64,000 nucleotides of DNA from Rhodococcus sp. 06-462-5 (GTDB taxonomy: Bacteria > Actinomycetota > Actinomycetes > Mycobacteriales > Mycobacteriaceae), in the NCBI RefSeq assembly GCF_002258315.1, contig NZ_NOYD01000001.1, positions 310,001-374,000 on the forward strand. The letters are read 5' to 3'. This document shows, piece by piece, positions 14,110 to 35,274 of this stretch. The notes beneath the pieces were generated by a model. The model saw nothing but the letters and a program-made list of their open reading frames with translations, searched no databases and had not been told where the DNA came from. The position numbers and the translations under genes are program-made. Positions within the stretch are counted from its first letter, which is position 1; the number at the start of each line of letters is the position of its first letter.

Positions 14110-16341
14110 TCACCTGCCGGGACGGGTCTCGGCAGATTCGAGCAGCCAGTGTGCGACGGGTGCAGGTCTACCGAACAGAAAGCCCTGCGCGAAGCGGCAT
14201 TCGAGAGCCTCGATGATCGCAGCCTGCTCTTCGGTCTCGACGCCCTCGGCCACCGTGGCCACCGGCAGCGCCGACGCCATGGCGACGATGGCGCGAATCA
14301 GCTGAGTGTCCGATTCCGAACTGCCGATCTCGTGGACGAAGGACTTGTCGATCTTGAGCAGTGCGATCGGCATCGCACGCAGCCTGCTCAGCGAGGAGTA
14401 GCCGATACCGAAGTCGTCGAGAACGATGAGCACCCCCATCGCGGCGAGTCGATCGAGAACGCTCTTCGCCGTGCCCATGTCGTCGATCAGGACGCTCTCG
14501 GTGATCTCGAGTGCCAGATCTGCTCCGTGGAGGCCGTACGTGTCGAGCAGTCGCGCGACGATGACCGGCAACGAATCGTCTCGCAGCTGCAACGGGGAGA
14601 CGTTCACCGACATGGTGACTTTCTGCCCGTTGGAACGCAGTGTCACCAGATCGGAGATCGAGGTGCGCAGCACCCATTCGCCGATCTCCTTGATGAGATT
14701 GGTCGATTCGGCGATCGGGATGAACTCGTTGGGGGTACGCACTCGCCCCTGCCAGTTCCAGCGCACGAGTGCCTCGTAGACGACGGTGGTGCGCGAGGCG
14801 GTCTCGATGATCGGCTGGTAGTACACCTCGAGCTCGCCGCGTCTGATCGCGCCGCGCAATGCGGTGGCGGTCTCGATCGCGGACGTCGCTCGCGCACGAA
14901 GGGACTCGTCGAAGAACGCGTAGCGCGCCGCGCCGAGAGATTTGGCGTGATACATCGCGGTGTCGGCCTCGCGGATGGCGTCGTGCAATCGGTCCGCGTC
15001 TGCGATCCCCACCGATGCCGTGACGTACGCCGTTGCGGCGCTCAGGGGGAACGGGTCGTTGGTCCGATCGATGATGCGGCGAGCCAGCGCTTCTGCTCCG
15101 CCGCGATCGCGGCGGGTCAGCACGACGAACTCGTCACCGGCGTACCGAACCACTGTGTCGGCGGCCCCGACTGCGGCGCGGATGCGTCCCGCTGCGGCCA
15201 CGATGAGTTCGTCCCCGACGCGGTGGCCGTACGAGTCGTTGACCATCTTGAAGTTGTCGAGGTCGACGAACAGGACGCACGTGCGTCCCGGAGTCTGGGT
15301 GCGCTCGAGCCGGGTGAATTCCTCGTCGAGCATCGTGCGGTTCGGTAGGCCGGTCAACAGGTCGTGAGCGGCCAGGTATTTCGCGTGCTCCTCGCCGACC
15401 TGCACTCGGGTCAGCGCGCGCTCGCCGCGTAGGAATGCGCCCACCAGGATCGATGCGAGCAACAGGGACCGGACGATCAGATCTCCGGTGGACACGGCCG
15501 AGCCCAGCAGCGGCACCGTGGCGCAGACGACCAGCAGCGTCACCACGAACACGACGCGGCGGCTGCTGTGCGCCGGTGCAGGAGTCTGCCGCTGCGAGAC
15601 GGTACGCATCGACGGATCGAGAGCGGCCATCGCCAGGGAGAGATACGCGAACAGGTAGATGCCGTCGAGCAATCCCGAGGACGGTGCGTCGTCGGTGGTG
15701 GCAGCGAAGGCGTACGAGACGTCGCCGACGAGCGTTGCGACGAGTGCGATCAGGGCCCACTGCAGCGCAGCGGTGCGGGGCTTGGACGAGAACAGCAGGT
15801 AGGTGGTCAGGGTGATCAGCGCTGCGTCGATCGCCGGATACAACCCGTTGACCACCGTCGATGCCGACGAACGAGGAGATTCGAGGGCCGGGGAGATGAA
15901 CAGCAACCACGACAGGAACAGGGTGCCGAGGAAGATCAGGCCTGCGTCGACGAGTGGAGTGATGTCGTCGATCGACTGCCGATCTCGGATCCACCGCGAC
16001 AGTGCGTATCCGACGAGTGCGTACCCGGTCAGTGTGAACAGATCCGGCAGCAGCGGGAACGAATGACTCAGTGCGGTGGGATCGCTGCGCAGCGAGACCC
16101 CGAACATGAACAGCACGGAGGCACCGAACAGTGCCCACCAGCATCGAGAGTCGTCGGGACGGTACCTACGGATCGCGGCGCTGATGGCCAGTACCGAACC
16201 GACGGCGACGGTCGCCAGGACACCGGCCCGCACTCCGGCGTCGCCGAGAACGAAGACGGTACTCGCGACGACGACCACTGCCACCAGACCGGCGGTCCGT
16301 TTGGTAGGCACGGCGAAGGGCGCAGCGACCTTCGTGTTCAT
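14110..16341 (-). CDS. Membrane GGDEF-EAL cyclic di-GMP protein
   Basis: 743 residues. About eight membrane helices (residues 15-305) form a MASE-like sensor. A diguanylate cyclase domain (about 320-475) has DLDNFKMVND and the signature YAGDEF (401-405, the accepted A/G variant). A phosphodiesterase EAL domain (about 495-735) has YEALVRW (522-528), LEITES, DDFGIGYSS (642-650), KIDKSF and AEGVET (698-703). All metal and catalytic acids of EAL are present, so both activities are plausible. It lies 21 bp downstream of ggt's start on the same strand; shared transcription is uncertain. The ligand sensed is unknown. Confidence 0.92.
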   Translation of the reverse strand: MNTKVAAPFAVPTKRTAGLVAVVVVASTVFVLGDAGVRAGVLATVAVGSVLAISAAIRRYRPDDSRCWWALFGASVLFMFGVSLRSDPTALSHSFPLLPDLFTLTGYALVGYALSRWIRDRQSIDDITPLVDAGLIFLGTLFLSWLLFISPALESPRSSASTVVNGLYPAIDAALITLTTYLLFSSKPRTAALQWALIALVATLVGDVSYAFAATTDDAPSSGLLDGIYLFAYLSLAMAALDPSMRTVSQRQTPAPAHSSRRVVFVVTLLVVCATVPLLGSAVSTGDLIVRSLLLASILVGAFLRGERALTRVQVGEEHAKYLAAHDLLTGLPNRTMLDEEFTRLERTQTPGRTCVLFVDLDNFKMVNDSYGHRVGDELIVAAAGRIRAAVGAADTVVRYAGDEFVVLTRRDRGGAEALARRIIDRTNDPFPLSAATAYVTASVGIADADRLHDAIREADTAMYHAKSLGAARYAFFDESLRARATSAIETATALRGAIRRGELEVYYQPIIETASRTTVVYEALVRWNWQGRVRTPNEFIPIAESTNLIKEIGEWVLRTSISDLVTLRSNGQKVTMSVNVSPLQLRDDSLPVIVARLLDTYGLHGADLALEITESVLIDDMGTAKSVLDRLAAMGVLIVLDDFGIGYSSLSRLRAMPIALLKIDKSFVHEIGSSESDTQLIRAIVAMASALPVATVAEGVETEEQAAIIEALECRFAQGFLFGRPAPVAHWLLESAETRPGR

Positions 16342-16377
16342 CGAAGGACCTACTTCCTTCTCGCGCGTGGCGTTCGC

Positions 16378-16827
16378 ATGGCTGTTCTCGACGCCTTCAT
16401 GGGTGAATATACGTCTTTGCGCAGTGCGTACGGGTACGAAGTCAGACCTGGCGGGCGAGGAACTTCAACAGATGTTGTGACGGCACAGCATCGTCAACCG
16501 GAGGTCGACGGACGAGGGTCGTCAACTCTCGATGCCAATCAGGGTTTCTCGCGCTTCACCCCGAGGGCTCGCAACGTGGTGGTCGGTGCGCAGAACGAGG
16601 CGCGGGCCGCCGCCAACGACCGAATCACGACCGGGCACCTGATTCTCGGCCTGCTCGGTGAACCCGAGGCGGTAGCCGTGAAACTGCTGGGCGCTCAGGG
16701 GCTCGCGCCCGAACGGATCCGCACGGCAGTGGCCGCGACGCTACCGGAACCGGCGGATCCGCTGCCCGCCCTCATCCCGTTCGACGCGGGATCGAAGAAG
16801 GTGCTGGAGCTGGCCCTGGGTAGCTAG
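16378..16827 (+). pseudogene. Truncated Clp N-terminal-domain protein (probable remnant)
   Basis: The recognisable part (about 16531-16827) reads GFSRFTPRARNVVVGAQNEA, RITTGHLILGLLGEPEAVAV and IPFDAGSKKVLELALGS. This is Clp-N repeat one plus the beginning of repeat two. In related actinobacterial proteins an N-terminal HTH precedes this, and repeat two continues with an LGHNYIGTEHLLL-type stretch. Here a TAG stops the frame after LALGS, and the upstream 50 codons match no HTH. No ribosome-binding site precedes the possible ATGs (16378, 16399). I read it as a fragment truncated at both ends; a short functional protein cannot be excluded. Confidence 0.6.
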
Positions 16828-17798
16828 GAAGCGATGGCCTTCGCTCGTTCGACGGCGATGCGTACCTCTTCCTCGATCAGGTCACCGTTGATCGCGGCAC
16901 CTGCCTTGACTCCGGCCGCGGACGCCGCCACGACGGTGTCCATCGGCGCGGCCACGTTGCCTGCAACCCACACGCCGGGCACCGATGTGGCACCGACGGG
17001 ATCGGCCTCGACGTACGTGCCGAGGACATGATCGTTCATGATCATCTCGGTCGTGCCGATCCCGAGCGACACCAGGATGTCTGCGCGGGAGGTGAAGTTG
17101 GGGCCCACGACCAGTGCGTCCAGCCGGATCTGCGTGCCGCTCGAGAGTGTCACTCCGACGATGGCGTCGTTGTCGACATCGACCCGAGCGATCTCCTCGT
17201 CGACCACCTCGATGCCACGGGCGGCAAGTCGCTCGAGATCTGCCTCGGCCAATTCCGTTGCCGTGTAGGCGAACACCGTGACGTGCTCGCTGAGCTGACG
17301 CCACATCTGTGCCTGGTGCCCGACCATGGCGCTGCCGATGATGCCGATCCTGCGATCGCGCACCTCCCAGCCGTGGCAGTACGGGCAGTGCAACACGTCG
17401 CGTCCCCACCGGTCGGCGAGGCCCGGTATGTCGGGCAGTTCATCGGTGAGGCCGGTGGTGACCAGGAGGCGGCGGCCGTGGACGACGGAACCGTCGGCGA
17501 GACTCACCTCGAACCCGGTGTCGGTTCGACGCGCGGACGTCGCGACGCCCTCGACGATGCGCGCGCCGTAGTGCCGCGCCTCGTCTCGGCCGAGTCGAAC
17601 CAGCTCGAGAGGTGATTCCCCATCGCGGGTGAGGTAGTTGTGGGAATGCGCTGCCGGGGCGTTGCGGGGATCGCCCGCGTCGATGATCGCAACGGATCGT
17701 CGAGAACGGCCGAGAGCCACGGCGGCACTGAGTCCGGCAACTCCGCCGCCGACGATGATCGCGTCGACCGGTGTGTGTCGATCGGTGTCTGTAGTCAT
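16824..17798 (-). CDS. Thioredoxin-reductase-like FAD/NAD(P) oxidoreductase
   Basis: 324 residues from the ATG at 17798. A longer in-frame start at 17909 would add a hydrophobic leader not seen in the family. The FAD Rossmann motif is GGGVAGLSAAVAL (17-29). The redox-active CPYC (Cys138, Cys141) sits in LHCPYCHGWE. An NADP-binding motif, GIIGSAMVGHQA, and a C-terminal FAD motif, GVWVAGNVAAPMDTVV, follow. The CxxCHGWE context is closer to dithiol oxidases of the HlmI/GliT type and other small-disulfide flavoproteins than to classical TrxB. No thioredoxin gene is adjacent. Substrate unknown. Confidence 0.88.
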   Translation of the reverse strand: MTTDTDRHTPVDAIIVGGGVAGLSAAVALGRSRRSVAIIDAGDPRNAPAAHSHNYLTRDGESPLELVRLGRDEARHYGARIVEGVATSARRTDTGFEVSLADGSVVHGRRLLVTTGLTDELPDIPGLADRWGRDVLHCPYCHGWEVRDRRIGIIGSAMVGHQAQMWRQLSEHVTVFAYTATELAEADLERLAARGIEVVDEEIARVDVDNDAIVGVTLSSGTQIRLDALVVGPNFTSRADILVSLGIGTTEMIMNDHVLGTYVEADPVGATSVPGVWVAGNVAAPMDTVVAASAAGVKAGAAINGDLIEEEVRIAVERAKAIAS

Positions 17799-17827
17799 GT
17801 GGAGAGTGTCCGACAGAGGCTGAACAT

Positions 17828-17845
17828 TGGCAAGAAACATTGCCA
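17828..17845. promoter_or_regulatory. Inverted repeat upstream of the flavoprotein gene
   Basis: TGGCAA-gaaaca-TTGCCA is a perfect 6-bp inverted repeat with a 6-bp spacer, 30 bp upstream of the start at 17798. It lies inside the most AT-rich stretch of this neighbourhood (about 17815-17875). Size and position fit a dimeric repressor site. No regulator gene lies adjacent. Confidence 0.5.
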
Positions 17846-18035
17846 GAACAGCAAATAGTGGAAGCGAAAAATACCGCACGACGCAATCGATCGCCCAGAA
17901 TCGGCACATCGCCGGATTGTGAACGTGCCGATTGGCGTCGAGGCTGTCAGTGGTCGCTGTAAGCGCGGATCTACCGCTTGAACAGGGGGTTCACTCGAGG
18001 TCTACTGGTCGGTAAGAATCGAGCCGGGGGGGCGT

Positions 18036-18278
18036 ATGGGGCACTTCGAGATCGGAGAGACCGTGATCACGGTCCGCAATCTGGGCCACGTGCGATGGCG
18101 TAGCGGAATCCCGAAGGGAACCGTGGGGATCGTCGTCGGCGTCGATTGGCTCGGCGATGCTCGCGTGAACTTCGCCGTCGACGAGTCGATGCGCACCCGA
18201 GGTGAGACGGTCGAACACATCGTCGCCGACGGCGACGTCCGCACGCTGCGGGCCGCTCCCCGCCGTCTGATCGGCTAG
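18036..18278 (+). CDS. Small conserved-style protein with SH3/KOW-like beta fold
   Basis: 80 residues starting MGHFEIGETVITVRNLGHVR. Alternating hydrophobic strands and glycine turns (IPKGTVGIVVGVDWLGDARV, NFAVDE) resemble a small five-stranded barrel of the SH3/KOW type. A basic C-terminal segment (RTLRAAPRRLIG) follows. GC-rich codon use and a G-rich run before the ATG support coding. It stands alone after a 237-bp spacer and overlaps the convergent 56-codon gene by 4 bp. I do not recognise the family; the fold suggestion is from the residue pattern only. Confidence 0.6.
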   Translation: MGHFEIGETVITVRNLGHVRWRSGIPKGTVGIVVGVDWLGDARVNFAVDESMRTRGETVEHIVADGDVRTLRAAPRRLIG

Positions 18279-18445
18279 TTGCCGGCGGTTCGCTCGTCAT
18301 CGGTCGCGGGACCGGTTTCGACGGCTCCGCCTTCGCTGGACCAATCGTTGTCCTCTGCCGCTGCGGCCGGATCGGACGTCACGTCCGGCTTCGCGTCGGG
18401 GGCCGTGTTCTCGTTCTTCTTCGCGTCGTTGTTCTGGGTAGTCAT
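18275..18445 (-). CDS. Small acidic, probably disordered protein (56 aa)
   Basis: The frame begins MTTQNNDAKKNENTAPDAKP and ends RTAGN. It is rich in Asp, Glu, Asn, Ala and Thr, with one aromatic pair region (NDWSSEGG). Nearly every codon ends in G or C, which strongly favours real coding despite only 56 residues. Composition indicates an unstructured hydrophilic peptide. No good Shine-Dalgarno is visible before the ATG at 18445. Convergent with the 80-residue gene (4-bp overlap). Function unknown. Confidence 0.6.
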   Translation of the reverse strand: MTTQNNDAKKNENTAPDAKPDVTSDPAAAAEDNDWSSEGGAVETGPATDDERTAGN

Positions 18446-18513
18446 GACCCGGGGGTACCCGCGCGGAGCCGAAGCAATCGTCGGCCCCGCGCGGGCGAGC
18501 GTTCCGGTGGTCT

Positions 18514-18618
18514 CTACAGCCCGAAGGGCAGCGTTCCCGGTGCCAGCTCGAAGCCGCTGCTACCAGCGGAAATGGAGCCGAAGCCGCTGAGGATCTGGTT
18601 GATGAACGCGGTGATCAT
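18514..18618 (-). CDS. Very small ORF with strong ribosome-binding site (34 aa)
   Basis: MITAFINQILSGFGSISAGS leads into a Gly/Ser/Pro-rich tail ending LPFGL. The start is preceded by AGAGGAAT at good spacing, a better Shine-Dalgarno than most genes here. The first 15 residues could form an amphipathic helix. Size and composition recall short secreted or pore-forming peptides of Corynebacteriales (PorA/PorH size class), but I see no sequence match and do not claim one. It is divergent from the SGNH lipoprotein gene at 18699. Function unknown. Confidence 0.5.
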   Translation of the reverse strand: MITAFINQILSGFGSISAGSSGFELAPGTLPFGL

Positions 18619-18698
18619 GTAATTCCTCTGTTCGATGCGATGGACTGGATGTCCCGGACAACCCGGTCGAGATTACCGGCAGCTGTAGCGTCGAAGCT

Positions 18699-19610
18699 GT
18701 GAGGAGCCAGGGAATTGTCGTCGGTCTTGCTGTGTCGGCCTGCGTACTGGCGGGCTGTTCGTCGGACTCTTCGGTATCGGAAGCCCCGGCTGGATCGGCG
18801 GAAGCGCCCGCTGTGTCGTCCGATCCGGCCGTTCCGCTGAACTACGTCGCGTTGGGTGATTCGGCCGCATCGGGCCCGCGAATCCCCGACCAGGTCGGCG
18901 CACCGGGTTGTCAGCAGTCCGACGCCAACTATCCGCACGTGCTCGCCGAGGAATTGGCCGTGGGCTCCTTCGTCGACGTCACCTGCTCGGGTGCCGTCAC
19001 CGAGAACATCGTCTCCACTCCGCAGGGCACGTCCAGCGGCGAGGTACCGGTGCAGCTCGACGCGCTGACGCCCGAGACCGATCTGGTGACCGTCACGATC
19101 GGTGGTAACGACATCGGGCTGGTCTCGACGGCCGTGCAATGCCTGACGTTCGCGGACACCTCGGCCACCAACGTCTGCAGGGACCGTCTCACCGCAGGCG
19201 GCGTCGACACCGTGGCCGCGGCCATCGCGGACAGTGCACCGAGCTGGGGAGCGATGCTCGACGCGGTGGCCGAACGTGCGCCCGACGCGCGGATCCTGGT
19301 GGTCGGGTACGGCACCTATCTGCCGGACGGCGGCTGCTTCCCCACCCAGCCGATGCTGCCCGAGGACGCCGATTACATCCAGGGCAGCATCACCGCCATG
19401 AACGACGCCCTACGCACGCAGGCGAACGAGCACGGCGCGGAGTTCGTCGACACCGAGCCGTTGAGTGTCGGCCACGACGTGTGTGTCGCTCCCGATCAGC
19501 GGTACTTCGAGGGGGTCGTCCCGCAGAATCCTGCGGCACCGTTGCACCCGACGGCGGCCGGGATGGCAGCGATCGCCGACGGGGTGGCCACTGTCGTGCG
19601 TGCCGGATAG
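18699..19610 (+). CDS. SGNH/GDSL-family hydrolase, predicted lipoprotein
   Basis: 303 residues from a GTG. The signal peptide ends in the lipobox VLAGC (Cys20) and is followed by a Ser/Ala/Pro linker. The catalytic blocks are all present: GDSAASG with Ser55 (block I), TIGGNDIG with Asn137 (block III), and a terminal PLHPTAAG with His283 (block V). Paired cysteines (in APGCQQS, VTCSG, QCLTF, NVCRD, GCFP, DVCV) fit an extracellular disulfide-bonded domain. Members hydrolyse lipids or acyl esters; the in vivo substrate is unknown. Resembles actinobacterial secreted SGNH lipases. Confidence 0.9.
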   Translation: MRSQGIVVGLAVSACVLAGCSSDSSVSEAPAGSAEAPAVSSDPAVPLNYVALGDSAASGPRIPDQVGAPGCQQSDANYPHVLAEELAVGSFVDVTCSGAVTENIVSTPQGTSSGEVPVQLDALTPETDLVTVTIGGNDIGLVSTAVQCLTFADTSATNVCRDRLTAGGVDTVAAAIADSAPSWGAMLDAVAERAPDARILVVGYGTYLPDGGCFPTQPMLPEDADYIQGSITAMNDALRTQANEHGAEFVDTEPLSVGHDVCVAPDQRYFEGVVPQNPAAPLHPTAAGMAAIADGVATVVRAG

Positions 19611-19671
19611 AGACCACGACACCGTAACTGGCTCTTCTCGTATGGGTAGGTCGAGGTGAAGTGTTGTCCGC

Positions 19672-20313
19672 ATGGTGTCGTATTCCGCAGCTCTCGGAGT
19701 GTTCGCAGTGGCTCTCGCGTTGGTTCTGACGCCGGGCCCCAACATGATCTACCTTGTCTCGCGCAGTATTTCGCAGGGCCGACGGGCGGGACTGGTGTCG
19801 TTGGCCGGCGTCGCAGTCGGATTCCTGGTCTATCTCACCGCCACCAATCTCGGCCTGGCAGCGGTGTTCACCGCGGTGCCTGCGCTGTACACGGTGGTCA
19901 AGCTCGCCGGCGCCGCGTACCTCGCCTGGTTGGCTGTGCAGGCGCTCCGTGGCACGGTGTCGGCCTTCGAACCGACCGAGCTGCAACAGGATTCGACTCG
20001 GCGGCTGTTCACCATGGGGTTGGTGACCAACCTGTTGAACCCGAAGATCGCGATCATGTACATCTCGGTCATCCCGCAGTTCGTCGATCCTGCGGCCGGA
20101 CACCTTCTGCTGCAGGGATTCACGCTCGGCGGCGTGCAGATCGCTGTGGCCGTAGCGGTCAACCTGGCGATCGTGGTGCTCGCCGGATCGATCGCGCAGT
20201 TCCTCGCCGTTCGCCCCACGTGGCTGAGGGTGCAGCGCTACGTCATGGGCACGGTGCTCGGACTGCTCGCCGTGCGGGTGGCGACCGACGGCGGCAAACC
20301 GGTCCCGGCTTGA
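19672..20313 (+). CDS. LysE/RhtB-family amino acid exporter
   Basis: 213 residues, about six membrane helices. The family start is ALVLTPGPNMIYLVSRSISQ, followed by GRRAGLVSLAGVAVGF. Further signatures are KLAGAAYLAWLAVQALRG and FTMGLVTNLLNPKIAIMYIS. Members export amino acids such as lysine, homoserine or threonine. The final 76 bp overlap, on the opposite strand, the end of allophanate hydrolase. It follows the SGNH gene by 61 bp on the same strand, without evidence of co-function. Confidence 0.92.
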   Translation: MVSYSAALGVFAVALALVLTPGPNMIYLVSRSISQGRRAGLVSLAGVAVGFLVYLTATNLGLAAVFTAVPALYTVVKLAGAAYLAWLAVQALRGTVSAFEPTELQQDSTRRLFTMGLVTNLLNPKIAIMYISVIPQFVDPAAGHLLLQGFTLGGVQIAVAVAVNLAIVVLAGSIAQFLAVRPTWLRVQRYVMGTVLGLLAVRVATDGGKPVPA

Positions 20314-21998
20314 GCTCTGTATGCGCGCCAGCCGCCGAATTCGGTGATGTCGGTTCCGTTCTCGGCTGCGTCGTGCGCGCAGCAGAATCCGGTGACCCAG
20401 CGGCCGTCGGACAATTCGACCGGGCCCAGGCCCATCGGCGCGGGCAATCCTGCGAGGAAGGTCCCGAGCGCGGCTGCGGACATGCGATACAACTCTCCCG
20501 AGATGGGAGCGCCGTCGCCGGCGCGCCGCACGAGACCGGGCTTGGGCGGGGTGGTGTGCAGATCGACCAGCCGGTAGTCCGCCGTGGTCGTCACCTCGCC
20601 GCTGAACCGGGCACCGCGATCGGTCAACTGGTGATGCACCGGAAAGCCGCGCAGATGCGCACCGACGGCCAACACCTCGATACCGTCGTCGATCAACGAC
20701 GGTGACGCGACGCCGCTCAACTGTGCAGCCAGGTCGATCGCGATCTGATCCTCGAATGCCGGCACCACGACCATGACCCCGAACGGATTGCCGTCCGGCG
20801 TCGGGGCTCCGGGAACGGCCACCGCGGCCATGTCGAGCAGGTTGCAGAAGTTGGTGAACGTGCCGAGGCGTCGATTGATGCCGACCGGATCCGACTGCAC
20901 CGCAGCGATGCTCGGATGCTCGGTGGTGGTGGGCAACAGCAGACCGTCGAAACTGTTCAGCAGTGCCAGGGCCGAAGTCTCGGCCCTGGCGAGCGCATCG
21001 ACGTCGTCCACGTACCGGTGCGCGGACGGTCCCGACGCCGATCGGACGATCGCGGACACCGTGGGATCGGCACCGGCAGGCGCGGTGTCGAGAAACTCTC
21101 CGACGGCCGAATAGCGTTGCGCCACAATTGCTCCGTCGTACAGCAGTGTTGCCGCGTCGAGCAGCGTGGAGATGTCGACCTCGGCGTGGGCAATACCCTT
21201 GTCGGCCAGGCCGGCCACCGTCTCCTCGAATGCCCGACGGTACGCCGGGCTCATCGACGTCAGATCTTCGGCTCGGGGGATGGCGACGCGGGGCTGCAGG
21301 GATGCGGCGAGCCGTACGTCGGCCGGCCAGGCCCGACTGCGTGGATCGGTAGAAGTAGGTCCGGTCATGACTTTCATTGCTGCAGTGGCACTGTCGAGAT
21401 CGCGCGCGAGAACGGTGACGCAATCGTAGTCGGCGCAGGCGGGCACGACGCCGGTGTTCGGCACGATACCCAGCGTGGCCTTGATGCCGACCAGCCCGTG
21501 GAAGGCTGCGGGTACTCGACCCGAACCTGCTGTATCGGTGCCGATTCCGATGTCCGCGATGCCCAGTGCGACCGCGACGGCGGAACCGGAACTCGAGCCT
21601 CCCGAGATCAGTGTCGGATCCCAGGCGCAGCGCACCGCGCCGTAGGGGCTGCGGGTCCCGACCAGTCCGGTGGCGAACTGGTCGAGATTGGTCTTGCCCA
21701 ACACCAGTGCGCCCTGGCTCGTCAGTCGCTCGACGGCGACAGCGGACACGTCGGGGGTGTAGGCGAACTCGGGGCAGGCCGCGGTGGTGGGCAGACCCGA
21801 GACGTCGATGTTGTCCTTGACTGCGACGAGCACACCGGCGAGCGGCAGATCAGCACCGGCTGCGAGCGCCTCGTCGAGGGCGACGGCCTCGGCCAGCACG
21901 TCGTCCTCGTCGCGCAGGGTGATCCAAACCTCGGGGCGATCCACCTCGGCGATCCGTTTGTAGGCCTGCAGAACTCGGTCCCGTACCTCAGGCTGCAT
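20238..21998 (-). CDS. atzF: Allophanate hydrolase
   Basis: 586 residues from the ATG at 21998, which overlaps the upstream stop by 11 nt. The amidase-signature domain (about 1-430) has Lys61 (VAVKDN), GGSSSGSA (cis-Ser around 135-136) and nucleophile Ser159 (DTAGSGR). A C-terminal allophanate-hydrolase domain (about 445-560) has [30 protein letters not shown] and GELYRM. It converts allophanate to ammonia and CO2. The normal end, GGWRAY, is followed by about 25 extra residues that are antisense to lysE, suggesting the original stop was lost. Last gene of the urea/guanidine-type operon. Confidence 0.93.
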
Positions 21999-24015
21999 CG
22001 GTCTTGCCCTTCGTCTTGTCGAATTCGCCCGCTGCCGACCACGCGTCGCGTTCGGCACCGAAGGCGACGGCCTGCGTCGCGCGGAACTCGGCGATGGAGT
22101 CCGCGTTGGTGTCCAGGAAGTTCTCGTGCTCGGCGAGGGAGAACTCACCGTCGGTGATCTGCACTCCGCCACCGCGACCGGCCGCCAGATCTGCGCGCAG
22201 GTCCATCAGTTCCTCGGGTTCGACCGGGTACCAGGAGATTCGGTCGAAGAAGCGAAGCAACCACGGGGTGCCCTCCTCGAACGGGCCGCCGCTGTAGGCG
22301 GCACTGTGGTTCCACACCTGCGTGGTTCGACCCACGAACTGGTATCCGCCAGGACCCTCCATGCCGTAGATGCACAGGTACGCTCCGCCGATGCCGACGG
22401 CGTTCTCCGGCGTCCACGTGCGCGCCGGGTTGTACTTGGTCGTCACCAGTCGGTGCCGCGGATCCAACGGGGTCGCCACCGGTGCGCCCAGGTACACGTC
22501 ACCGAGTCCGAGAACCATGTAGTCGGCAGCGAAGACGGTGTCGAACACCTCTGCCACCGAGTCGAGTCCGTTCATGCGCCGGATGAACTCGATGTTCCAG
22601 GGACACCACGGGGCGTCGGCGCGCACGCCGTGCATGTATCGCTGTATCGCCTCGCGGGTCGAGGGGTCGTCCCACGACAGTGGCAGCCGAACCTGGCGGC
22701 TGGGCACCACGAGTTCCGAGGCCGCGGGCAGATCGTCCTCGACCTCCGATAGCAGACCCATCAACGAATCGATGGACAGCACATCGGGATTCACCTTCAC
22801 CTGTAGCGAGCGAATTCCCGGGGTCAGGTCCACCAACCCGCGGGGCGCGAGTGCTTCGACGCGCTGGTGTAGGGCGTGCACTCGGGCCCGCAGGGCCAGA
22901 TCGAGCTTCATGTCGCCGTACTCGACCAGCACGTTGTCGTCGCCCGAGCGGCGGTAGGTGACGCACGTGTCGGCGTCGCGTCGAGCGATGACGCCGTCGT
23001 CACCGTCGCCGCCTGCGGAGAACACCGCGGGCAGAGACGCGCGGCGAGCGAGACCGAGTGATCCCAGCGGCGCGGTGGACGCGGCCTTCACAGGAACGAA
23101 ACGGATGGTGTCGCCCGGTCGTAGCTGGCCGAGCTTCCACCGCTCGGCCGCGACAACGGTGACAGGGCAGACGAATCCGCCCAGGCTCGGCCCGTCGGGT
23201 CCGAGCAGGATCGGGGTGTCGCCGGTGAAGTCCAACGCCCCGACGCTGTAGGCGTTGTCGTGGATGTTCGACGGGTGCAGTCCGGCCTCGCCGCCGTCGG
23301 GCCGAGCCCACTGCGGCTTCGGTCCGATCAGCCGGACCCCGGTGCGGTCGGAGTTGAAGTGCACCTCGTAGCGGGTGGCGTAGAGGGTGTCGATGTCCTC
23401 GCGGGTGAAGAACTCCGGTGCGCCGTGTGGACCCTCGGTGACGGCGATGTCCCATTTCGACGTCAGCACCGGCAGGTGTTCCATGGGAATCGGACCGAGG
23501 ACTGCGGCGTTGTCGGAGCGGCCCGCCAGTCCGACGACGTCGCCCTCACCGAGCACGCCGCCGCGATGTCCACCGAACTTACCGAGCGTGAACGTTGCTG
23601 CGCTACCGAGGTAGTCGTCGACGTGGAGGCTGCCCTGAATCAGAACGTAGACCCGCAGCCCCGACCCGGTGGTGGTACCGACATCGAGTAGGGCACCGGC
23701 GGGCACCAGTACGGGTTTCCACTGCGGAGCCGCTCGGCCGTCGATGCGCACCGGCACCGCGGCACCGGTGACGCAGACGTAGGTGTCGGCATCGAACGTC
23801 AATGCCGGCCCGGCCATGGTGGATTCCAGCCCCGGTGCACCCTCGGGATTGCCGAGCGCGACGTTGCCGAGCCGGAACGACAGGTCGTCCATCGGTCCCG
23901 ACGGTGGTACGCCGACCTTCCAGTAGCCGACGCGTCCGGGCCAGTCCTGCACCGTGGTGAGCATCCCGGGCCGCTGGACCGTCATCTTGGCGGCTGTGAG
24001 GTTCGCTCCGGTCAT
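21988..24015 (-). CDS. Urea-carboxylase-like protein, carboxyltransferase half only
   Basis: 675 residues from the ATG at 24015 (ATGA overlap with the DUF1989 gene). It has an AHS2/PxpC-like domain (about 8-300: [54 protein letters not shown]) and an AHS1/PxpB-like domain (about 375-600: [53 protein letters not shown]). In urea or guanidine carboxylases these are flanked by an N-terminal biotin carboxylase and a C-terminal biotinyl (AMKM) domain. Both are absent here; the protein ends just after the AHS1 tail at TKGKTDAA. Alone it should be unable to carboxylate; a partner must be elsewhere. Confidence 0.85.
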
Positions 24016-24650
24016 GCGCGCGTCACGATCATGCGCACCGCGGTGGGGTCGAATCCGTTGCAGGGGTTGTTGATCTGCGGGCAGTTGGACACCAGCACCA
24101 GCGTGTCGATCTCGGCACGCAACGACAGCTTCTTGCCGGGAGCCGAGAGACCGTCGACGATGCCGAGGGTGCCGTCGGCGTCGACGGGGACGTTCATGAA
24201 GAAGTTGATGTTGGGCACCAGGTCTCGTTTGCCGAGTCCCCACTTGGATCCCTCGATGAGGAAGTTCTCGACGCACGCGTGCTGATGCTGCGTGTGGTGG
24301 CCGTAGCGGAGGGTGTTCGATTCCTTGGAGCACGCACCGCCGACGGTGTCGTGGTTTCCGACCTCGTCGTCGACGATCGTCATGATCGGCGTCGAATCAT
24401 CGCTCCGCAGCACGGTTCCGGTGGTGAGAAAGAGGTTCTGCTGCGCGCTGACGGTTGCGGGGGCGGAATATCGGATCGAGTGGTCGTGCGCGCCGTACAT
24501 CAGGGTGTCGACGGCCTGATTGCCGTACAGATCGACGATGGTCAGTACGTCACCCGCCTCGACGACGGCGGACCAGGGGCCGAATGCGGGGGCGATCTCG
24601 TCGCGAACGATCGTGGTCTCGAGTGTGCTGCTCACTGTTCCTGTGGTCAC
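24012..24650 (-). CDS. DUF1989 urea-carboxylase-associated protein 1 (CgdA/CgdB-like)
   Basis: 212 residues from the GTG at 24650, preceded by GGAAGG at ideal spacing and overlapping the upstream stop (GTGA). DUF1989 motifs are [66 protein letters not shown] and [17 protein letters not shown]. Conserved Cys and His residues suit metal or covalent chemistry. Paired DUF1989 proteins of this context form carboxyguanidine deiminase in characterised guanidine pathways. Which substrate is used here is an inference from neighbours (permease, carboxylase-like, AtzF). Confidence 0.87.
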
Positions 24651-25429
24651 TGTGCTGCCTTCCATGCGTCCTCGGTGTTCTGCACTGCGCGCAGGTATTC
24701 CGGTTCGGTATTGCCGAGAGTGAGTAGCTCTTCCGGTGCTCGCCACGCCAGTACGTCGAGAGCGGTCGTGGGGAATTCGGACCTCGGGTCGAGTGGGTGA
24801 GCGGTGTTGGCCAGCAACACGATCACCGGCAGGTGGATCAGCAGATCCACGTGCTTTCCCGCTCCTGCGGATCCGGTGCTGATCAGAGCGCCGTCGGCGT
24901 CGACTCTCACGCCGTGAAAGAACGACAGGGACGGTGCGACGTCGCGTGGTTCGAGTCCGTGCTTGGCTGCGGCGAGGGTGAACAGTTCCCGACCGGCCGG
25001 AGCCGACGAATGTGGTCCGCTGACTCCGTATTTGGCGACATTGGTGGCGGTGGAGGTGGTGCCGCACAGTGCGTCGTGGCGGCCGGAGGTGTCGTCGACG
25101 AGGGTGGCCAGCACGCGGCCCTGGTCCGAGAGCAGGGGATGGCCCGAGCTCAGGTAGGCCTGCCACGGCACCTTGACGGTGTCGGCGGTGTTGAGCCGTT
25201 CCCACGGTGCGTCGGCGCGGTAGAGCAGGATGTTGGCGCAGGCATCACCGTCGACGTCGACGAGACGTAGCCGGGTTCCACGTGCGAGGACCTTGGTGGT
25301 GTAGCTGCCGCCGGGCACCGATTCGGCCCAGGTGAGCTCCGAGATGCCCTCCGGTGCAGTGGGTGCCGGAGCGACGGTGGCCTGGGAACGTGCGTGTTCC
25401 TTGGCAGAGTGGGTGGTTGCTGTGCTCAT
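24647..25429 (-). CDS. DUF1989 urea-carboxylase-associated protein 2 (CgdA/CgdB-like)
   Basis: 260 residues. A Thr/Ala/Pro-rich leader (about 1-28) precedes the DUF1989 domain: SVPGGSYTTKVLARGTRLRL, DGDACANILLYRADAPWERL, NTADTVKVPWQAYLSSGHPL, DALCGTTSTATNVAKYG and SFFHGVRVDADGAL. It is the larger partner of the adjacent DUF1989 protein, with a 4-nt overlap, as expected for a heteromeric deiminase. It is second in the operon after the permease (6 nt). If the system acts on guanidine, the product would feed allophanate hydrolase. Confidence 0.87.
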   Translation of the reverse strand: MSTATTHSAKEHARSQATVAPAPTAPEGISELTWAESVPGGSYTTKVLARGTRLRLVDVDGDACANILLYRADAPWERLNTADTVKVPWQAYLSSGHPLLSDQGRVLATLVDDTSGRHDALCGTTSTATNVAKYGVSGPHSSAPAGRELFTLAAAKHGLEPRDVAPSLSFFHGVRVDADGALISTGSAGAGKHVDLLIHLPVIVLLANTAHPLDPRSEFPTTALDVLAWRAPEELLTLGNTEPEYLRAVQNTEDAWKAAQ

Positions 25430-25435
25430 GGTGGC

Positions 25436-26983
25436 TCAGGCTCCGATCGTGACGGGCTTGGGGTGGGCTTTGCCGCGGGGAAGGCAGGCGATGCCGACGA
25501 CGATCACGGCGAGGACGGTCAGCGGTGCGGCCCATCGCAGGATGGGGAATTCTCCGGTGGGGTCGAAGATCTCGGCGCGCGGCCATGACAGGTTGATCAC
25601 CATCAATCCGCCGTACAGGACCGCTGCGATGTTGACGGGCAGGCCGAGTCGGCCGAGGGTGAAGAGCTTGTCCCCGTCGGCATCTTTCTGTACTCCGCCG
25701 TGCGGCCATCCCTTGAGCCGCTGGATCAGCAGCGGGACGGTGACCATCATGTAGGCGAGGTAGATCAGCACGATGCAGACGCTGGACAGCGTGGTGAAGA
25801 TCGCGGAGTTGCCGACGTTGACGGCCAGGATCGCTACGCAGGCCAGACCGATCAGCACCGACGGTGCGATGGGAGTTCCGGTGCGCGAGTTGACCTTCGC
25901 GAGAGCCGCGGAGGCGGGCAGTCGTCCGTCGCGGGCCATGGAGAACATCAGCCGCGATGCCGCGGTCTGGATGGCGAGGGTGCAGATGAACACGGCAATC
26001 GCGACGTCGACCAGTAGAACCTTGCCCCACGGCGAGGTGAGGATCGAGTCGATGACGTACGGAAGCCCCTGTGTCGCAAGCTGACCGTCGGTCAGGCTGG
26101 GTGCGGCCATCAGAGCGCCGACGATCATCAGGCCGCCGCCCAGTGCCGATGCGGACAGTGCCAGGCGGATGGTGCGGGGCGCGACGCGTCGGGGATTGCG
26201 GGTCTCCTCGGCGAGTTCGCCTGCCGAGCCGAAGCCGACCATGACGTAGGCGGCCATCAGGCCCGAGACGATCCAGGCCCCGATGTAGCCGGGATCGGCT
26301 CCGGCACTTCCGGTATCGAACACCACCTGCGGTCCACGCTCGGCGTGGGTGAAGAACACCAGTACCAGGGCGATGACTCCGACGATCTCGCAGGTGACGC
26401 CGATGCTGTTGATCCGCGACATCCAGTTCACGCCGATGCAGTTGATGGTGGTGGTGAGCACCAGCAGAATCGATCCCAGCACAACGGCATTGGCGGCACC
26501 GCTCGGTGAGGTGAGTGCGGTGTCCTCGCCGATCAGCTGGAATCCGCCCCAGATGCTGGGGAGTACCACCTGCAGTGCGATCGCGGCCGCCGAGGCGGTG
26601 ACGATCTGGGCGATGATCATGAACCAACCCGCGAACCACCCGACCAGCTCGCCGCCCATGCGCCGCGACCAGTGGTAGATCGCACCCGAGATGGGATAGC
26701 GGGCAGCGAGTTCGGCGAAGTTCAGGGCCACCATGAACTGCCCGAGGAATACCAGCGGCCAGGTGAGGAAGAAGGCCGGGCCGCCGAAGCTGAAGCCGAG
26801 GCCGAAGAGCTGGAAGATGGTGGTGAGGATCGAGACGAACGAGAAGCCGGCCGCGAAGGACGCGTACTTACCGAGGCTGCGATGCAGCTGCTGGTCGTAA
26901 CCCAGGGCGGCCAGATCCGAATGATCCGAGGTGGCGGGTGATTCGGACCCCTGACCCGACGCGGGCAGTGTGGTCGAGCTCAT
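25436..26983 (-). CDS. APC-family amino acid/amine permease of the urea-carboxylase-type operon
   Basis: 515 residues and twelve predicted membrane helices. APC signatures are YASFAAGFSFVSILTTIFQL, GQFMVALNFAELAARYPISG, YHWSRRMGGELVGWFAGWFM, GFGSAGELAEETRNPRRVAP and ASRLMFSMARDGRLPAS. It heads the minus-strand operon (permease, DUF1989 x2, carboxyltransferase, allophanate hydrolase), so it probably imports the operon's nitrogen substrate, a guanidino or urea-type compound. Its start is 187 bp from the divergent TetR gene, and the spacer carries an inverted motif that may control both. Confidence 0.88.
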   Translation of the reverse strand: MSSTTLPASGQGSESPATSDHSDLAALGYDQQLHRSLGKYASFAAGFSFVSILTTIFQLFGLGFSFGGPAFFLTWPLVFLGQFMVALNFAELAARYPISGAIYHWSRRMGGELVGWFAGWFMIIAQIVTASAAAIALQVVLPSIWGGFQLIGEDTALTSPSGAANAVVLGSILLVLTTTINCIGVNWMSRINSIGVTCEIVGVIALVLVFFTHAERGPQVVFDTGSAGADPGYIGAWIVSGLMAAYVMVGFGSAGELAEETRNPRRVAPRTIRLALSASALGGGLMIVGALMAAPSLTDGQLATQGLPYVIDSILTSPWGKVLLVDVAIAVFICTLAIQTAASRLMFSMARDGRLPASAALAKVNSRTGTPIAPSVLIGLACVAILAVNVGNSAIFTTLSSVCIVLIYLAYMMVTVPLLIQRLKGWPHGGVQKDADGDKLFTLGRLGLPVNIAAVLYGGLMVINLSWPRAEIFDPTGEFPILRWAAPLTVLAVIVVGIACLPRGKAHPKPVTIGA

Positions 26984-27041
26984 GTGATCTCCTACGGGCG
27001 AGGTGGGTGGATGAGTGACCCCGCTGCATCACCGAGGCGGG

Positions 27042-27135
27042 TTTCTGTCAGTTGATAGTTTTCGGCACCGTCGTTCCCGGGCGGTGACCGTCGTGCAACA
27101 AGCTCGTTTCGTCTATTTCGATCAGATGACAGAAA
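27042..27135. promoter_or_regulatory. Inverted operator-like motif between permease operon and TetR gene
   Basis: TTTCTGTCA at 27042-27050 recurs as its exact inverse TGACAGAAA at 27127-27135. The match extends to TTTCTGTCANNTGAT in both copies. One arm is near each divergent start, a common arrangement for a local repressor. The TetR protein at 27170 is the obvious candidate. Confidence 0.55.
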
Positions 27136-27169
27136 TCTCACCGTCATATCGAGCTGACAAGATGCAGTC

Positions 27170-27871
27170 ATGACCGGAGCAGGCAGGCCAAGGCTGAGCA
27201 CGAAGAAGCGGCCCGGTGACACCGCTCGCGAGGAGATACTCGACGCCTCGGCCGAGCTCTTCACCACTCGCGGATTCACCAACACCTCGACTCGCGTCAT
27301 CGCCGAGGCCGTCGGATTGCGTCAGGCCTCGCTGTATCACCACTTCGCGACCAAGGACGACATCCTGGACGCACTGCTCAGCGGAACGGTCGACGCGCCG
27401 CTGGCCGTCGCGCAGCACATTCGAGACTCGCAGGCCGAGGCTGCGACCCAGATGTACGCACTCGCCTACTTCGATTCCGGCCAACTCGGTGCGTCCACCT
27501 GGAATCTGGGCGCGCTGTACCTGCTGCCCGAGCTACGCAGCGAACGCTTCGAGACTTTCCGCGACCATCGCTACACGCTGATGGGTCTGTATGCGGCCAT
27601 CGCGTCGGACACGCTGGACCAACTGGGCTCCCCACGCCGACCGGGGACGGAGGACCTGCCGTTTCGCCTGGTGGAGACCGTGGTGAACGCAAGAGCCGAT
27701 CGTGAGAACGGTCGCAGCGACCCCACAGCCGATGCCGCCGGAATCGCCGCGGCAGCACTGCGCGTGCTCGGCTGGACCGGAGATGTCACGGCGTTGCACG
27801 AGAGTGCGGAAGCCCTGCTCGAGTCGGTCGTCGGAATAGTCGAGGACGGACGTTCCTTGCACAGGACATGA
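27170..27871 (+). CDS. TetR-family transcriptional regulator
   Basis: 233 residues. The HTH domain (about 15-65) has AREEILDASAELFTTRGFTN, TSTRVIAEAVGLRQASLYHH and FATKDDILDALL, which are textbook TetR helices 1-4. The C-terminal ligand domain has no recognisable subfamily signature. Its position divergent from the permease/urea-type operon, with mirrored motifs in the spacer, suggests it represses that operon and itself. The 3' end overlaps the SDR start (ATGA), so it also shares an mRNA with the three genes that follow. Confidence 0.9.
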   Translation: MTGAGRPRLSTKKRPGDTAREEILDASAELFTTRGFTNTSTRVIAEAVGLRQASLYHHFATKDDILDALLSGTVDAPLAVAQHIRDSQAEAATQMYALAYFDSGQLGASTWNLGALYLLPELRSERFETFRDHRYTLMGLYAAIASDTLDQLGSPRRPGTEDLPFRLVETVVNARADRENGRSDPTADAAGIAAAALRVLGWTGDVTALHESAEALLESVVGIVEDGRSLHRT

Positions 27872-28533
27872 CTTCCATAGCAATTGTCGGAGCAGGTGCA
27901 GGTCTCGGAGCAGCGGTGGCGCGCAAGTTCGGCGCGCAGGGTTTCTCGGTCGGCCTCATCTCCCGCAACCAGGCCCGCGTGGACTCCCTGGCCGATCAGC
28001 TCGCTGCCGACGGTATCGCCGCGAAGGGCTTCGTCGCCGACGTACGTGACCCGGCCTCGATCGCCGCAGCGCTCGAGCAGGTCACCGAAACGCTCGGACC
28101 CATCGAGGTGCTGCAGTACAGCCCACTTCCGCAGAAGGACTTCATGCGGCCCGTGCTCGAGACCACCCCGGCCGACATGGTCGGCCCGGTCGAGTTCTCC
28201 ATCTACGGGCCCATTGCCGCCGTGCACCAGGTGCTGCCGGGCATGCGATTTCTCGGCGAGAACAAGGGCACGATCCTGTTCGTCAACGGCGGCTCTGCGG
28301 TGAAGCCCGGTCGTACCGTCACCGGTACGTCCATCGCGTTCGCAGGCCAGGCCGCCTACGCGCAGCTGCTCAACGAGGAACTGGCCGAGGAGGGAATCCA
28401 GGTGTCGCAGTTGATCATCGGTGGTGCCATCGACGGTAGCGACCCGAGGAAGAGCCCCGAGGCTCTCGCCGAACAACTGTGGAACCTGCACACCGGACGC
28501 GACAAGTTCCGGGTTCAGATCGCCACGGATTAG
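27868..28533 (+). CDS. Short-chain dehydrogenase/reductase (SDR), atypical
   Basis: 221 residues. The N-terminal Rossmann motif is IVGAGAGLGAAVARKFGAQG and the next strand is GFVADV. The central region has YSPLPQ where classical SDRs have NAG. The catalytic Tyr-x-x-x-Lys of classical SDRs is not evident: the position reads GTSIAFAGQAAYAQLLNEEL, with Tyr but Gln-Leu-Leu rather than Lys. This points to an atypical or divergent member. It starts inside the tetR stop codon, and a cupin gene follows 10 bp later. Substrate unknown. Confidence 0.82.
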   Translation: MTSIAIVGAGAGLGAAVARKFGAQGFSVGLISRNQARVDSLADQLAADGIAAKGFVADVRDPASIAAALEQVTETLGPIEVLQYSPLPQKDFMRPVLETTPADMVGPVEFSIYGPIAAVHQVLPGMRFLGENKGTILFVNGGSAVKPGRTVTGTSIAFAGQAAYAQLLNEELAEEGIQVSQLIIGGAIDGSDPRKSPEALAEQLWNLHTGRDKFRVQIATD

Positions 28534-28543
28534 GGTTGCGTCC

Positions 28544-28987
28544 ATGACGTCGCTGCCCGACTGGGCTCAGAGCCTGGACCTTGCACCCCACCCGGAGGGT
28601 GGTTGGTTTCGCGAGACCTGGCGCAGCGAGGTCACCATCCCACAGGAGTTCCTGCCCGACGGCTATCCCGGTCCCCGCGCGGCAGGCACGGCAATCCTGT
28701 TCCTGCTCATGCCCGGCCAGCAGTCGGCGTGGCACACCGTCCGCGGCACCGAGATGTGGCTGTATCACCGCGGTAGTCCGGTGCAGCTCGACCTCGGCGG
28801 CGCAGGGGACGATCCGGGAACCGTGACCTCGCTGCTGGTCGGACCGGACTCGCCGCAGCAGATCGTGCCGCCGTCGGTGTGGCAGCGGGCGCGTCCGGTG
28901 GGCGACGAGCCGAGCTTGGTCAGCTGCACCGTCACTCCGGGATTCGATTTCGAGGACTTTCGGCTCGAGGGGCCTGCGAATGGGTAG
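28544..28987 (+). CDS. Cupin, DUF985 family
   Basis: 147 residues. The N-terminus PDWAQSLDLAPHPEGGWFRE followed by TWRS is the DUF985 signature. A beta-barrel core follows: AILFLLMPGQQSAWHTVRGT, EMWLYHRGSPVQL, and VPPSVWQRARPVGDEPSLVS. His residues in AWHTV and LYHRG, with Glu of TEMW, lie where cupins bind metal. Family enzymatic function is not established. It overlaps the spermidine-synthase-like gene by 8 nt and follows the SDR by 10 nt, so the three are co-transcribed. Confidence 0.85.
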   Translation: MTSLPDWAQSLDLAPHPEGGWFRETWRSEVTIPQEFLPDGYPGPRAAGTAILFLLMPGQQSAWHTVRGTEMWLYHRGSPVQLDLGGAGDDPGTVTSLLVGPDSPQQIVPPSVWQRARPVGDEPSLVSCTVTPGFDFEDFRLEGPANG

Positions 28988-29804
28988 GAAGCGCGCGTCG
29001 GCACCGGCCGGCTCTCTGCAACCCGGAGTGTTCGAGATCGATTCGGGCACATGTGAACTGGTTCGTGACGCCTTCTCCGACGACGGCTGGGTCGTCAACG
29101 TCAACGACGTCCCGAGTTCGCACATCGACATGAACGACCCCACCGTTCTCGAATTCGAGTACATGCGCTGGATATCCGGACTGGTTCGCGCGCAGTGGGA
29201 TTCGACCTTCCCGCTGCGGGCGCTGCACCTCGGGGGCGGGGCGTGCACGCTCGCGCGTTCGTTCACCGCGGAATATCCGGGGGCACGTCAGGTGGTCGTG
29301 GAACTCGACGGAAAGCTCTCGGAGTTGGTACGCGAATGGTTCGACCTCCCGCGAGCACCGCTGCTGCGTATCCGCGTCGGTGAGGCGCGGGCGGTCACCG
29401 AGACCTTGAGCGAGAACAGCCGCGACCTGATCGTGCGAGATGTGTTCGCCGGAGCGGTCACTCCGGCCCCGCTACTGACCGCCGAGTTCACCGAGCATGT
29501 TCGACGCGTCCTCACGCCCGGCGGCATGTACGTCGTCAATTGCGGTGATCGACGCGATCTTTCGCTCGCGAAGCAGGAGGCGGCGACTCTTCGCAGTGTC
29601 TTTCCGCACCTGGCGATCGTCGCCGATCCGGCGATGCTCAAGGGCAGGCGCTACGGCAACATCATCATCGCGGGCAGCGATGTGCCGATCGGGGATTCCC
29701 CGTCGTTGGCTCGCGAACTGCTCGGCGGCGCGGTACCGGCTCACGTGTGGCTCACCGAGCAGGTCGAGTCCTTCGCTCGCGATGCGCGAATCCTGAAAGA
29801 TTAG
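28980..29804 (+). CDS. Spermidine-synthase-like class I methyltransferase-fold protein
   Basis: 274 residues. It has the Rossmann-like nucleotide/aminopropyl-donor motif ALHLGGGACTLARSFTAEYP, then VVELDGKLSELVREWFDLP, the region RVGEARAV, and IVRDVFAGAVTPAPL, where spermidine synthases carry their catalytic Asp. A late strand, TPGGMYVVNCGDRRDL, follows. Soluble, no membrane domain. Many actinobacterial relatives are annotated as spermidine synthases without proof, and a methyltransferase role is equally possible. It overlaps the cupin gene (8 nt) and converges with the IclR gene (4 bp overlap). Confidence 0.8.
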   Translation: MGRKRASAPAGSLQPGVFEIDSGTCELVRDAFSDDGWVVNVNDVPSSHIDMNDPTVLEFEYMRWISGLVRAQWDSTFPLRALHLGGGACTLARSFTAEYPGARQVVVELDGKLSELVREWFDLPRAPLLRIRVGEARAVTETLSENSRDLIVRDVFAGAVTPAPLLTAEFTEHVRRVLTPGGMYVVNCGDRRDLSLAKQEAATLRSVFPHLAIVADPAMLKGRRYGNIIIAGSDVPIGDSPSLARELLGGAVPAHVWLTEQVESFARDARILKD

Positions 29805-30577: not shown

Positions 30578-30608
30578 GCTCGTAGCTTCTACCGATCTCG
30601 ATAGAACA

Positions 30609-32009: not shown

Positions 32010-32021
32010 GTCGGCTCGCTC

Positions 32022-32912: not shown

Positions 32913-32917
32913 GGGTT

Positions 32918-33788: not shown

Positions 33789-33956
33789 CAGACGAGCGTG
33801 ACACCGATCACATCCACTGTCAAGGGTTGATCTCGGGTTGTCTGCGTCGAGTCTTTCGGTGTTGCAGCACTGCGGTATTCGGCGCTTCGGTCGGACAGTC
33901 CGGGTGTGCGGGTCTTGACAGATCCACGTGGTGCACGCCACACTCGCTTCACAAAA

Positions 33957-33972: not shown

Positions 33973-34021
33973 CAATGCGGACTTTGAGTCCGGTCCGTTC
34001 GAGCCCGAGAGGAACGACTTC

Positions 34022-34417: not shown

Positions 34418-34429
34418 AAGGCACTGTGC

Positions 34430-35266: not shown

Positions 35267-35274
35267 GGATTCTC

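Follow-up and report, generated by a model that had tools for sequence, protein, structure and literature searches.

A retained carboxyltransferase half of a putative guanidine carboxylase in Rhodococcus and its relatives, probably served in trans by an acyl-CoA carboxylase alpha subunit

In a stretch of 64,000 nucleotides from Rhodococcus sp. 06-462-5 (positions 310,001 to 374,000 of contig NZ_NOYD01000001.1, assembly GCF_002258315.1, a draft in 61 contigs), the whole of which we call the window and in whose own numbering coordinates are given, a guanidine carboxylase appears to be reduced to its carboxyltransferase (CT) half. The gene runs on the reverse strand from an ATG start at 24015 down to 21988 and codes for an orphan protein of 675 amino acids, deprived of both the biotin carboxylase (BC) and the biotin carboxyl carrier protein (BCCP) domains. 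This CT-only state is no local accident of one strain. We consider it probable that the protein is a retained guanidine CT, to which the alpha subunit of a housekeeping acyl-CoA carboxylase, be it AccA3, AccA2 or AccA1, would bring the missing functions in trans.

A complete carboxyltransferase without its biotin domains

CT_A_B at residues 34-308 and CT_C_D at residues 353-571 are the only Pfam matches of the protein (E up to 0.001), with no BC domain among them, and the urea_carbox profile TIGR02712 aligns with it over positions 445-1119 of 1201, at 963.5 bits, below the curated cut-off of the family (1303.85). Because this match spans 445-1119 only, BC (about 1-444) and BCCP (about 1120-1201), with its biotinylated lysine, are absent; neither a biotin-type MK motif nor the glycine motif of ATP-grasp enzymes is present in the frame. 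The CT of the urea carboxylase, or urea amidolyase, of Kluyveromyces lactis (3va7, 5i8i) can be aligned to residues 12-649. The CT is complete, and BC and BCCP alone are missing from the protein. A first-pass annotation, made from the letters alone, had described just this architecture, without BC or carrier motif, and it had also placed the gene in an intact-looking operon with a permease, two DUF1989 proteins and AtzF, joined by overlaps of 4 to 11 nucleotides; both descriptions proved right, the gene order being recovered and the overlaps read directly. Scores typical of PxpB and PxpC are not reached: 102.5 bits against the 500 of the PxpC equivalog and 33.3 against the 145.55 of PxpB.

Two residues carry the functional assignment. 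The conserved catalytic aspartate at TIGR02712 position 956 is present as D506, and position 701, where urea carboxylases have an asparagine, is occupied by an aspartate, D262; both aspartates are found in 27 of 27 loci of the core CT-only group. Asp as opposed to Asn at position 701 separates guanidine from urea carboxylases, as reported in PMC11410670, and in the 17 full-length rows of the same set it is Asp in 14 and Asn in three (L084, L089, L119), the latter being probably true urea carboxylases. By this marker the window protein would be of the guanidine rather than the urea type: urea, one of the substrates envisaged in the first-pass annotation, becomes unlikely by the same residue.

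Distribution, phylogeny and constraint

The gene was initially proposed to be retained rather than decaying, and a recent deletion confined to this strain was named as what would refute the idea. Comparison of domains across orthologues excludes such a deletion. Among 37 genomes of the genus, all but G002 have a match, and 36 of the 37 matches are CT-only by frame length, including one broken copy in G005, the remaining match being a separate full-length protein of that same genome. The 35 CT-only frames that were inspected (that of G013 being left out) contain neither BC nor carrier motif, and four of the genomes with this architecture are in a single contig (G010, G015, G027, G028). The full-length protein of G005 (L119), which accompanies the broken CT-only copy (L118), is a urea carboxylase with Asn at the marker position. 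At E up to 1e-100, and counting full-length proteins too, relatives are found in 59 of 298 genomes of an order sample and in 16 of 396 genomes of a phylum sample.

A scan of named genomes gave 555 confirmed relatives, and the best 80 loci were analysed. They divide into 31 CT-only loci (L221, from M. houstonense, being counted here though its frame stops 54 residues early), 45 full-length ones and four that are partial or unclear: L220 has a BC without standard carrier motif, and L170, L215 and L229 are masked, truncated or broken in frame ahead of the CT. An unrelated-looking BC match lies at the edge of locus L166, about 9 kb from its CT. All 31 CT-only loci among these best 80 come from Mycobacteriales (Rhodococcus, Rhodococcoides, Mycobacterium/Mycolicibacterium/Mycolicibacter, Nocardia, Gordonia, Williamsia and Skermania), genera that bear mycolic acids; the loci of that order that are not CT-only are two from Mycobacterium (L179, L180), one from Smaragdicoccus (L225) and the masked one of Lolliginicoccus (L170). 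The closest named relative among the 80 belongs to Rhodococcoides fascians NBRC 12155, with 95% identity.

In a tree of 89 CT sequences, for which 52 of the 80 named loci were joined with 36 genome loci and with the window protein, the core CT-only proteins fall, 46 out of 46, in one clade (support 99 in the approximate likelihood ratio test SH-aLRT), nested among full-length guanidine carboxylases; a smaller tree under a richer model likewise groups 27 of 27. Left out of the larger tree were the CT-only L162 and L221 and 26 of the other 49 named loci, mostly from Streptomyces and Actinoplanes; the partial L170, L215 and L229 are absent from it. Both trees, as well as the BC trees discussed below, are quick searches without bootstraps. 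Since the 46 core proteins make a single nested clade, we can understand the present situation as the outcome of one ancient event, in which an ancestor within Mycobacteriales lost BC and BCCP. Mycobacterium proteins stand in both halves of the CT-only clade and, in addition, on the full-length side, a pattern suggestive of transfer between species. Three distant CT-only rows (G139, G157 and G562, joined by G416 in the smaller tree) are placed outside the core clade, have Ala, Ile or Met at the specificity position, and probably represent another enzyme. The distant CT-only loci L128, L088, L129 and L127, three of which come from outside the order of the window, have Ile, Met or Ala at that position; L128 and L129 adjoin DUF1989 proteins and AtzF, and L127 belongs to a genome without BC_C match.

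The carboxyltransferase has remained constrained since this loss. Among 240 columns that are invariant in 35 full-length guanidine-type enzymes, 212 are unchanged in 97% or more of the 46 core CT-only proteins, and mean pairwise identity is the same in both groups (0.707 in CT-only against 0.708 in full-length proteins). The ratio of non-synonymous to synonymous substitution rates (dN/dS) of the CT ranges from 0.05 to 0.11 against six closer relatives, reaching 0.30 in distant pairs, whose dS approaches or exceeds 0.9; it is below that of AtzF in 11 of 11 pairs and is not always below that of the permease or CgdB. By these measures the CT has been under strong purifying selection ever since BC and BCCP were lost, and the initial view of a gene retained rather than decaying is strongly supported by its presence in the genus, its single clade, its low dN/dS and its undiminished identity.

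Candidate donors of carboxybiotin

The pathway that we propose is as follows. The permease encoded at the head of the operon would, from its family and context, import guanidine. An acyl-CoA carboxylase alpha subunit combining BC and BCCP, most likely AccA3 or AccA2, would carboxylate its own biotin at the expense of ATP and bicarbonate and present carboxybiotin to the CT in trans. The CT would then move the carboxyl group to guanidine, as its kept active-site and specificity residues suggest, to yield carboxyguanidine. The deiminase CgdAB would convert the latter to allophanate, which AtzF would split into ammonia and CO2, two steps established for these families elsewhere.

Alpha subunits with BC and BCCP are indeed encoded in the genome of the strain, which has five BC_C matches. 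From context, frame size and what is known of these families, we take C58, whose neighbours are an AccD-type carboxyltransferase and an acyl-CoA dehydrogenase, to be a methylcrotonyl-CoA carboxylase subunit of AccA1 type, C57 to be of AccA2 type, C25, near PxpA/B/C, to be AccA3-like, and C52 to be pyruvate carboxylase, C24 presumably being a large fused protein. Pieces of AccA3 type, cut at contig ends, are further present in C44 and at both ends of C41. The two ends of C41 have near-identical carrier domains, and the closed relative G015 has two copies of AccA3, G010 three; these breaks and near-identical carriers suggest that duplicated AccA3 genes broke the assembly. Around C25 (L036, 7744-15257), reading by eye places the AccA3-like BC-BCCP gene near PxpA, PxpB and PxpC, so that another CT pair of urea-carboxylase type stands near an alpha subunit resembling those of acyl-CoA carboxylases.

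The first-pass annotation had called for a genome-wide search for stand-alone BC genes with affinity to urea carboxylase, and none was found in the genome of the strain. A search for BC_C in twelve further CT-only genomes gave 46 matches in 11 of them (40 in eight genomes of the core clade, none in G139). When 38 rows, the five of the strain itself and 33 of the 46 others, were placed in a tree with 26 BC domains from full-length urea or guanidine carboxylases, every one of them stayed outside the clade of these domains (support 100). The 13 remaining matches, which were outside the tree, are of AccA1, AccA2 or AccA3 type by identity in an ortholog search. There is thus no stand-alone BC of urea or guanidine carboxylase type among the 51 BC matches of 12 CT-only genomes, that of the strain included; with 38 of 38 rows outside that clade and the other 13 of AccA types, the ancestral BC is gone rather than relocated in the genomes examined. 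An extra family of BC proteins is seen in two CT-only genomes (L240 in G652 and L241 in G687): its two members share 62% identity, lie far from the other BC groups, are not of urea or guanidine type and have no CT match nearby.

Candidate donors are not scarce. At identities of at least 59%, AccA1 and AccA2 types are each present in 31 of 31 CT-only genomes, two of these matches (G036, G086) covering the protein only in part, and a full-length AccA3 type at no less than 79% identity is found in 36 of 38 genomes searched and in 29 of the 31 that carry the CT. Presence or absence of AccA1, AccA2 or AccA3 was tried as a means to choose the donor and abandoned as uninformative. In favour of AccA3, it is reported to be the alpha subunit common to three acyl-CoA carboxylase complexes (PMC11001197). 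In favour of AccA2, M. smegmatis can do without accD2-accA2 in standard medium (PMC4347857, where deletion strains of this pair and of accD1-accA1 are both described). Among the carriers compared, the AccA2-type one of the strain is most like those fused in full-length guanidine carboxylases, with a mean identity of 0.50 over the nine closest as against 0.36-0.42 for the other five candidates; this comparison has no control set and omits the carrier of the fused C24 protein, and it makes AccA2 a lead only.

Weighing the alternatives

Several facts speak against supply in trans by an alpha subunit. The operon contains no BC gene, and the pairing of the CT with any alpha subunit, be it physical or biochemical, is deduced. 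An AccA3 type is also present in all seven CT-less genomes of the family that were searched, so that presence or absence picks no donor, and in two CT-only drafts it is in pieces or missing: G012 has it in pieces at contig ends, and the best match of G011 is 47% identical. Guanidine as the substrate depends on a single residue rule drawn from the literature. At the other 28 of the 240 columns that full-length guanidine types hold constant, the CT-only clade is relaxed or has changed, and these differences could represent a new docking surface or an altered chemistry. Residues 223, 377, 536 and 539 are examples of changes specific to the lineage. AtzF or the permease is not seen beside the CT in some Mycobacterium and Nocardia loci, and the CT-only copy, as we have seen, is broken in G005 and absent from G002.

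The first-pass annotation hesitated between supply in trans and a biotin-independent chemistry. In the latter case the CT, its active site being kept, would carboxylate or activate guanidine without carboxybiotin, using a donor not known for the family. We find this unlikely. There are proteins of CT type without biotin domain, PxpB and PxpC, which act in 5-oxoprolinase without biotin, though the match to the PxpC profile is weak, far under the cut-off quoted above; moreover, the entire BC and BCCP are gone, with no dedicated replacement found in the genomes examined. G139 could be cited as well, since it combines a diverged CT-only relative with the lack of any BC_C match; however, the draft reaches 94% completeness, and the protein is from a different subfamily, with the catalytic aspartate replaced. 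Against this reading, D262, D506 and 212 of the 240 fixed columns persist in the core clade, more than would be expected if the reaction partner had become irrelevant, and CgdAB and AtzF, downstream, still need carboxyguanidine. Our preference for supply in trans comes from the conservation of most positions that are fixed in biotin-dependent relatives; as to the donor, the evidence singles out none of AccA1, AccA2 and AccA3.

The partner might instead be a small stand-alone carrier, charged by some BC, rather than an AccA alpha subunit, an idea to which we give little credit. A 71-residue protein with an ESMKM motif, which we take to resemble mycobacterial TB7.3, is encoded in the genome of the strain (C52:46566-46778) and is present in 38 of 44 genomes tested; it has no match (E 1e-18) in the CT-only G605 and G652, and it is found in six of seven CT-less genomes of the family. 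Such a carrier is therefore neither required nor specific, and is not supported as an obligatory partner. It is harder still to believe that the CT is a vestigial or structural remnant, no longer catalytic, in an operon kept for some other reason: the loci without neighbouring AtzF or permease, the broken copy of G005 and the lack of CT in G002 would agree with this, yet purifying selection on the CT exceeds that on AtzF in every one of the 11 pairs and identity equals that of the full-length enzymes. Finally, an error of sequencing or assembly, or a deletion that arose recently in the source strain, for which only its 61-contig draft state could be invoked, is refuted by CT-only proteins in 36 of 37 genomes of the genus, four of them in a single contig, and in 31 named genomes among the best 80 of 555, and by the single clade of 46 of 46 core proteins.

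Known systems and consequences

The nearest known system is the guanidine carboxylase (GC or Gca) of the GC-CgdAB-AtzF pathway, with which the window protein shares the CT, both marker aspartates and the CgdA, CgdB and AtzF partners, and in whose tree it is nested; it differs by the lack of BC and BCCP and by a score under the family cut-off. The K. lactis urea amidolyase can be aligned over the whole CT, whereas the window protein has Asp, not Asn, and no BC, BCCP or fused allophanate hydrolase. PxpB and PxpC (KipI/KipA type) have the same two CT subdomain families and likewise no biotin domain in the polypeptide, but they are two separate genes, while the window protein is one chain in the order of urea carboxylase (PF02626 then PF02682). 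Two separate adjacent genes resembling the two CT halves occur in some bacteria and archaea, and this arrangement, as given in PMC3199775, is of the PxpB/C type and not of the CT-only guanidine type. Sharing of the kind that we propose is known from the acyl-CoA carboxylases of mycobacteria (AccA with AccD), in which one BC-BCCP alpha subunit serves several separate CT subunits (PMC11001197, PMC4347857), although AccD proteins act as carboxyltransferases on acyl-CoA and belong to another family than the window CT; the word 'urea' is absent from the main text of PMC4347857. No description of a CT-only guanidine or urea carboxylase, or of an AccA subunit serving one, came out of a literature search from which most subscription papers were outside, so that absence is not proven.

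If the CT borrows AccA3 or AccA2, a single pool of carboxybiotin would feed both acyl-CoA carboxylation (for cell-envelope lipids, if the donor is AccA3) and the scavenging of nitrogen from guanidine in Rhodococcus, Nocardia, Gordonia and Mycobacterium relatives. The shared alpha subunit could then couple nitrogen and lipid metabolism under nitrogen starvation, and evolution would have turned a single-chain biotin enzyme into the borrower of a shared subunit. Annotation would have to follow: in these bacteria, what is now called 'urea carboxylase' or 'urea amidolyase' would be a guanidine CT subunit. Should no donor be needed, biotin-independent carboxylation of guanidine would be new chemistry.

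The operon, its regulation and its neighbours

The operon lies on the reverse strand, and four of its products exceed each its own curated cut-off. It begins with a permease of the amino-acid-permease family (25436..26983; TIGR03428, 'permease, urea carboxylase system', 885.4 bits, cut-off 740.45), followed by the two DUF1989 subunits of carboxyguanidine deiminase, CgdA or UAAP1 (24647..25429; TIGR03425, 284 bits, cut-off 205.95) and CgdB or UAAP2 (24012..24650, with a GTG start; TIGR03424, 326.6 bits, cut-off 284.7), then by the CT, and it ends with the allophanate hydrolase AtzF, made of amidase and AH_C domains (20238..21998; TIGR02713, 646.6 bits, cut-off 511.05). Its junctions are tight: GTGA between CgdA and CgdB, ATGA between CgdB and the CT, and an overlap of 11 nucleotides between the CT and AtzF.

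Divergent from the operon, on the forward strand, is a TetR regulator of AmtR type (27170..27871; best PDB relative 5e57, 'Transcription regulator AmtR', E 5.2e-61). Two palindromes of the form CTRTCA-NN-TGAYMG separate it from the operon, CTGTCAGTTGATAG at 27045..27058 near the permease and CTGTCATCTGATCG, read on the reverse strand, at 27119..27132 near amtR, both being candidate AmtR operators; a site with one mismatch is also found at 10341-10354, and since the pattern was derived from the window sequence itself, its chance expectation is a rough guide only. A similar palindrome is visible by eye in eight upstream regions of relatives, and it may be an AmtR box. Together, regulator and promoter palindromes make AmtR a candidate for the control of the operon. 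A GlnR box was also sought upstream; matches to its pattern are scattered, their place is not conserved among relatives, and it was rejected as evidence. No riboswitch or other Rfam family matched within 15000-34000 at E up to 1.

An operon of similar arrangement is described in M. smegmatis, msmeg_2184-2189, with a permease, two unknown frames, a 'urea carboxylase' and an amidase under AmtR control (PMC4222082). AmtR represses it and binds upstream of msmeg_2184, while msmeg_2184-2187 and msmeg_2189 rise 48-, 13-, 32-, 3- and 4-fold in nitrogen starvation via GlnR; R. jostii, N. farcinica, G. bronchialis and others are listed alongside. The section on this operon speaks of a urea carboxylase, and mentions neither missing domains nor guanidine, the likeness to our case being one of gene arrangement; urea and amino acids cause no release of AmtR, guanidine not being among the effectors named there. 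By analogy, expression of the window operon is presumably under nitrogen control by AmtR and GlnR.

Variants and neighbours of the operon deserve a word. In L100 and L104, from genus g2 of the same family, a short CgdA-CgdB-CT operon without adjacent AtzF has, as read by eye, an AmtR-like TetR gene upstream, and a coaD-like gene and a frame of about 1130 residues bearing BC, probably a pyruvate carboxylase, lie a few kilobases away. In the window, an island of purine and ureide catabolism (29801-40133) adjoins the guanidine operon, with an IclR regulator, a xanthine permease, uricase, glycerate kinase, allantoicase and a thiamine pyrophosphate enzyme resembling glyoxylate carboligase. Within this uricase and allantoicase island, a protein encoded at 33563-34417 on the forward strand, an internal methionine of which is its probable true start, has an AH_C domain only (residues 156-277), without amidase domain.

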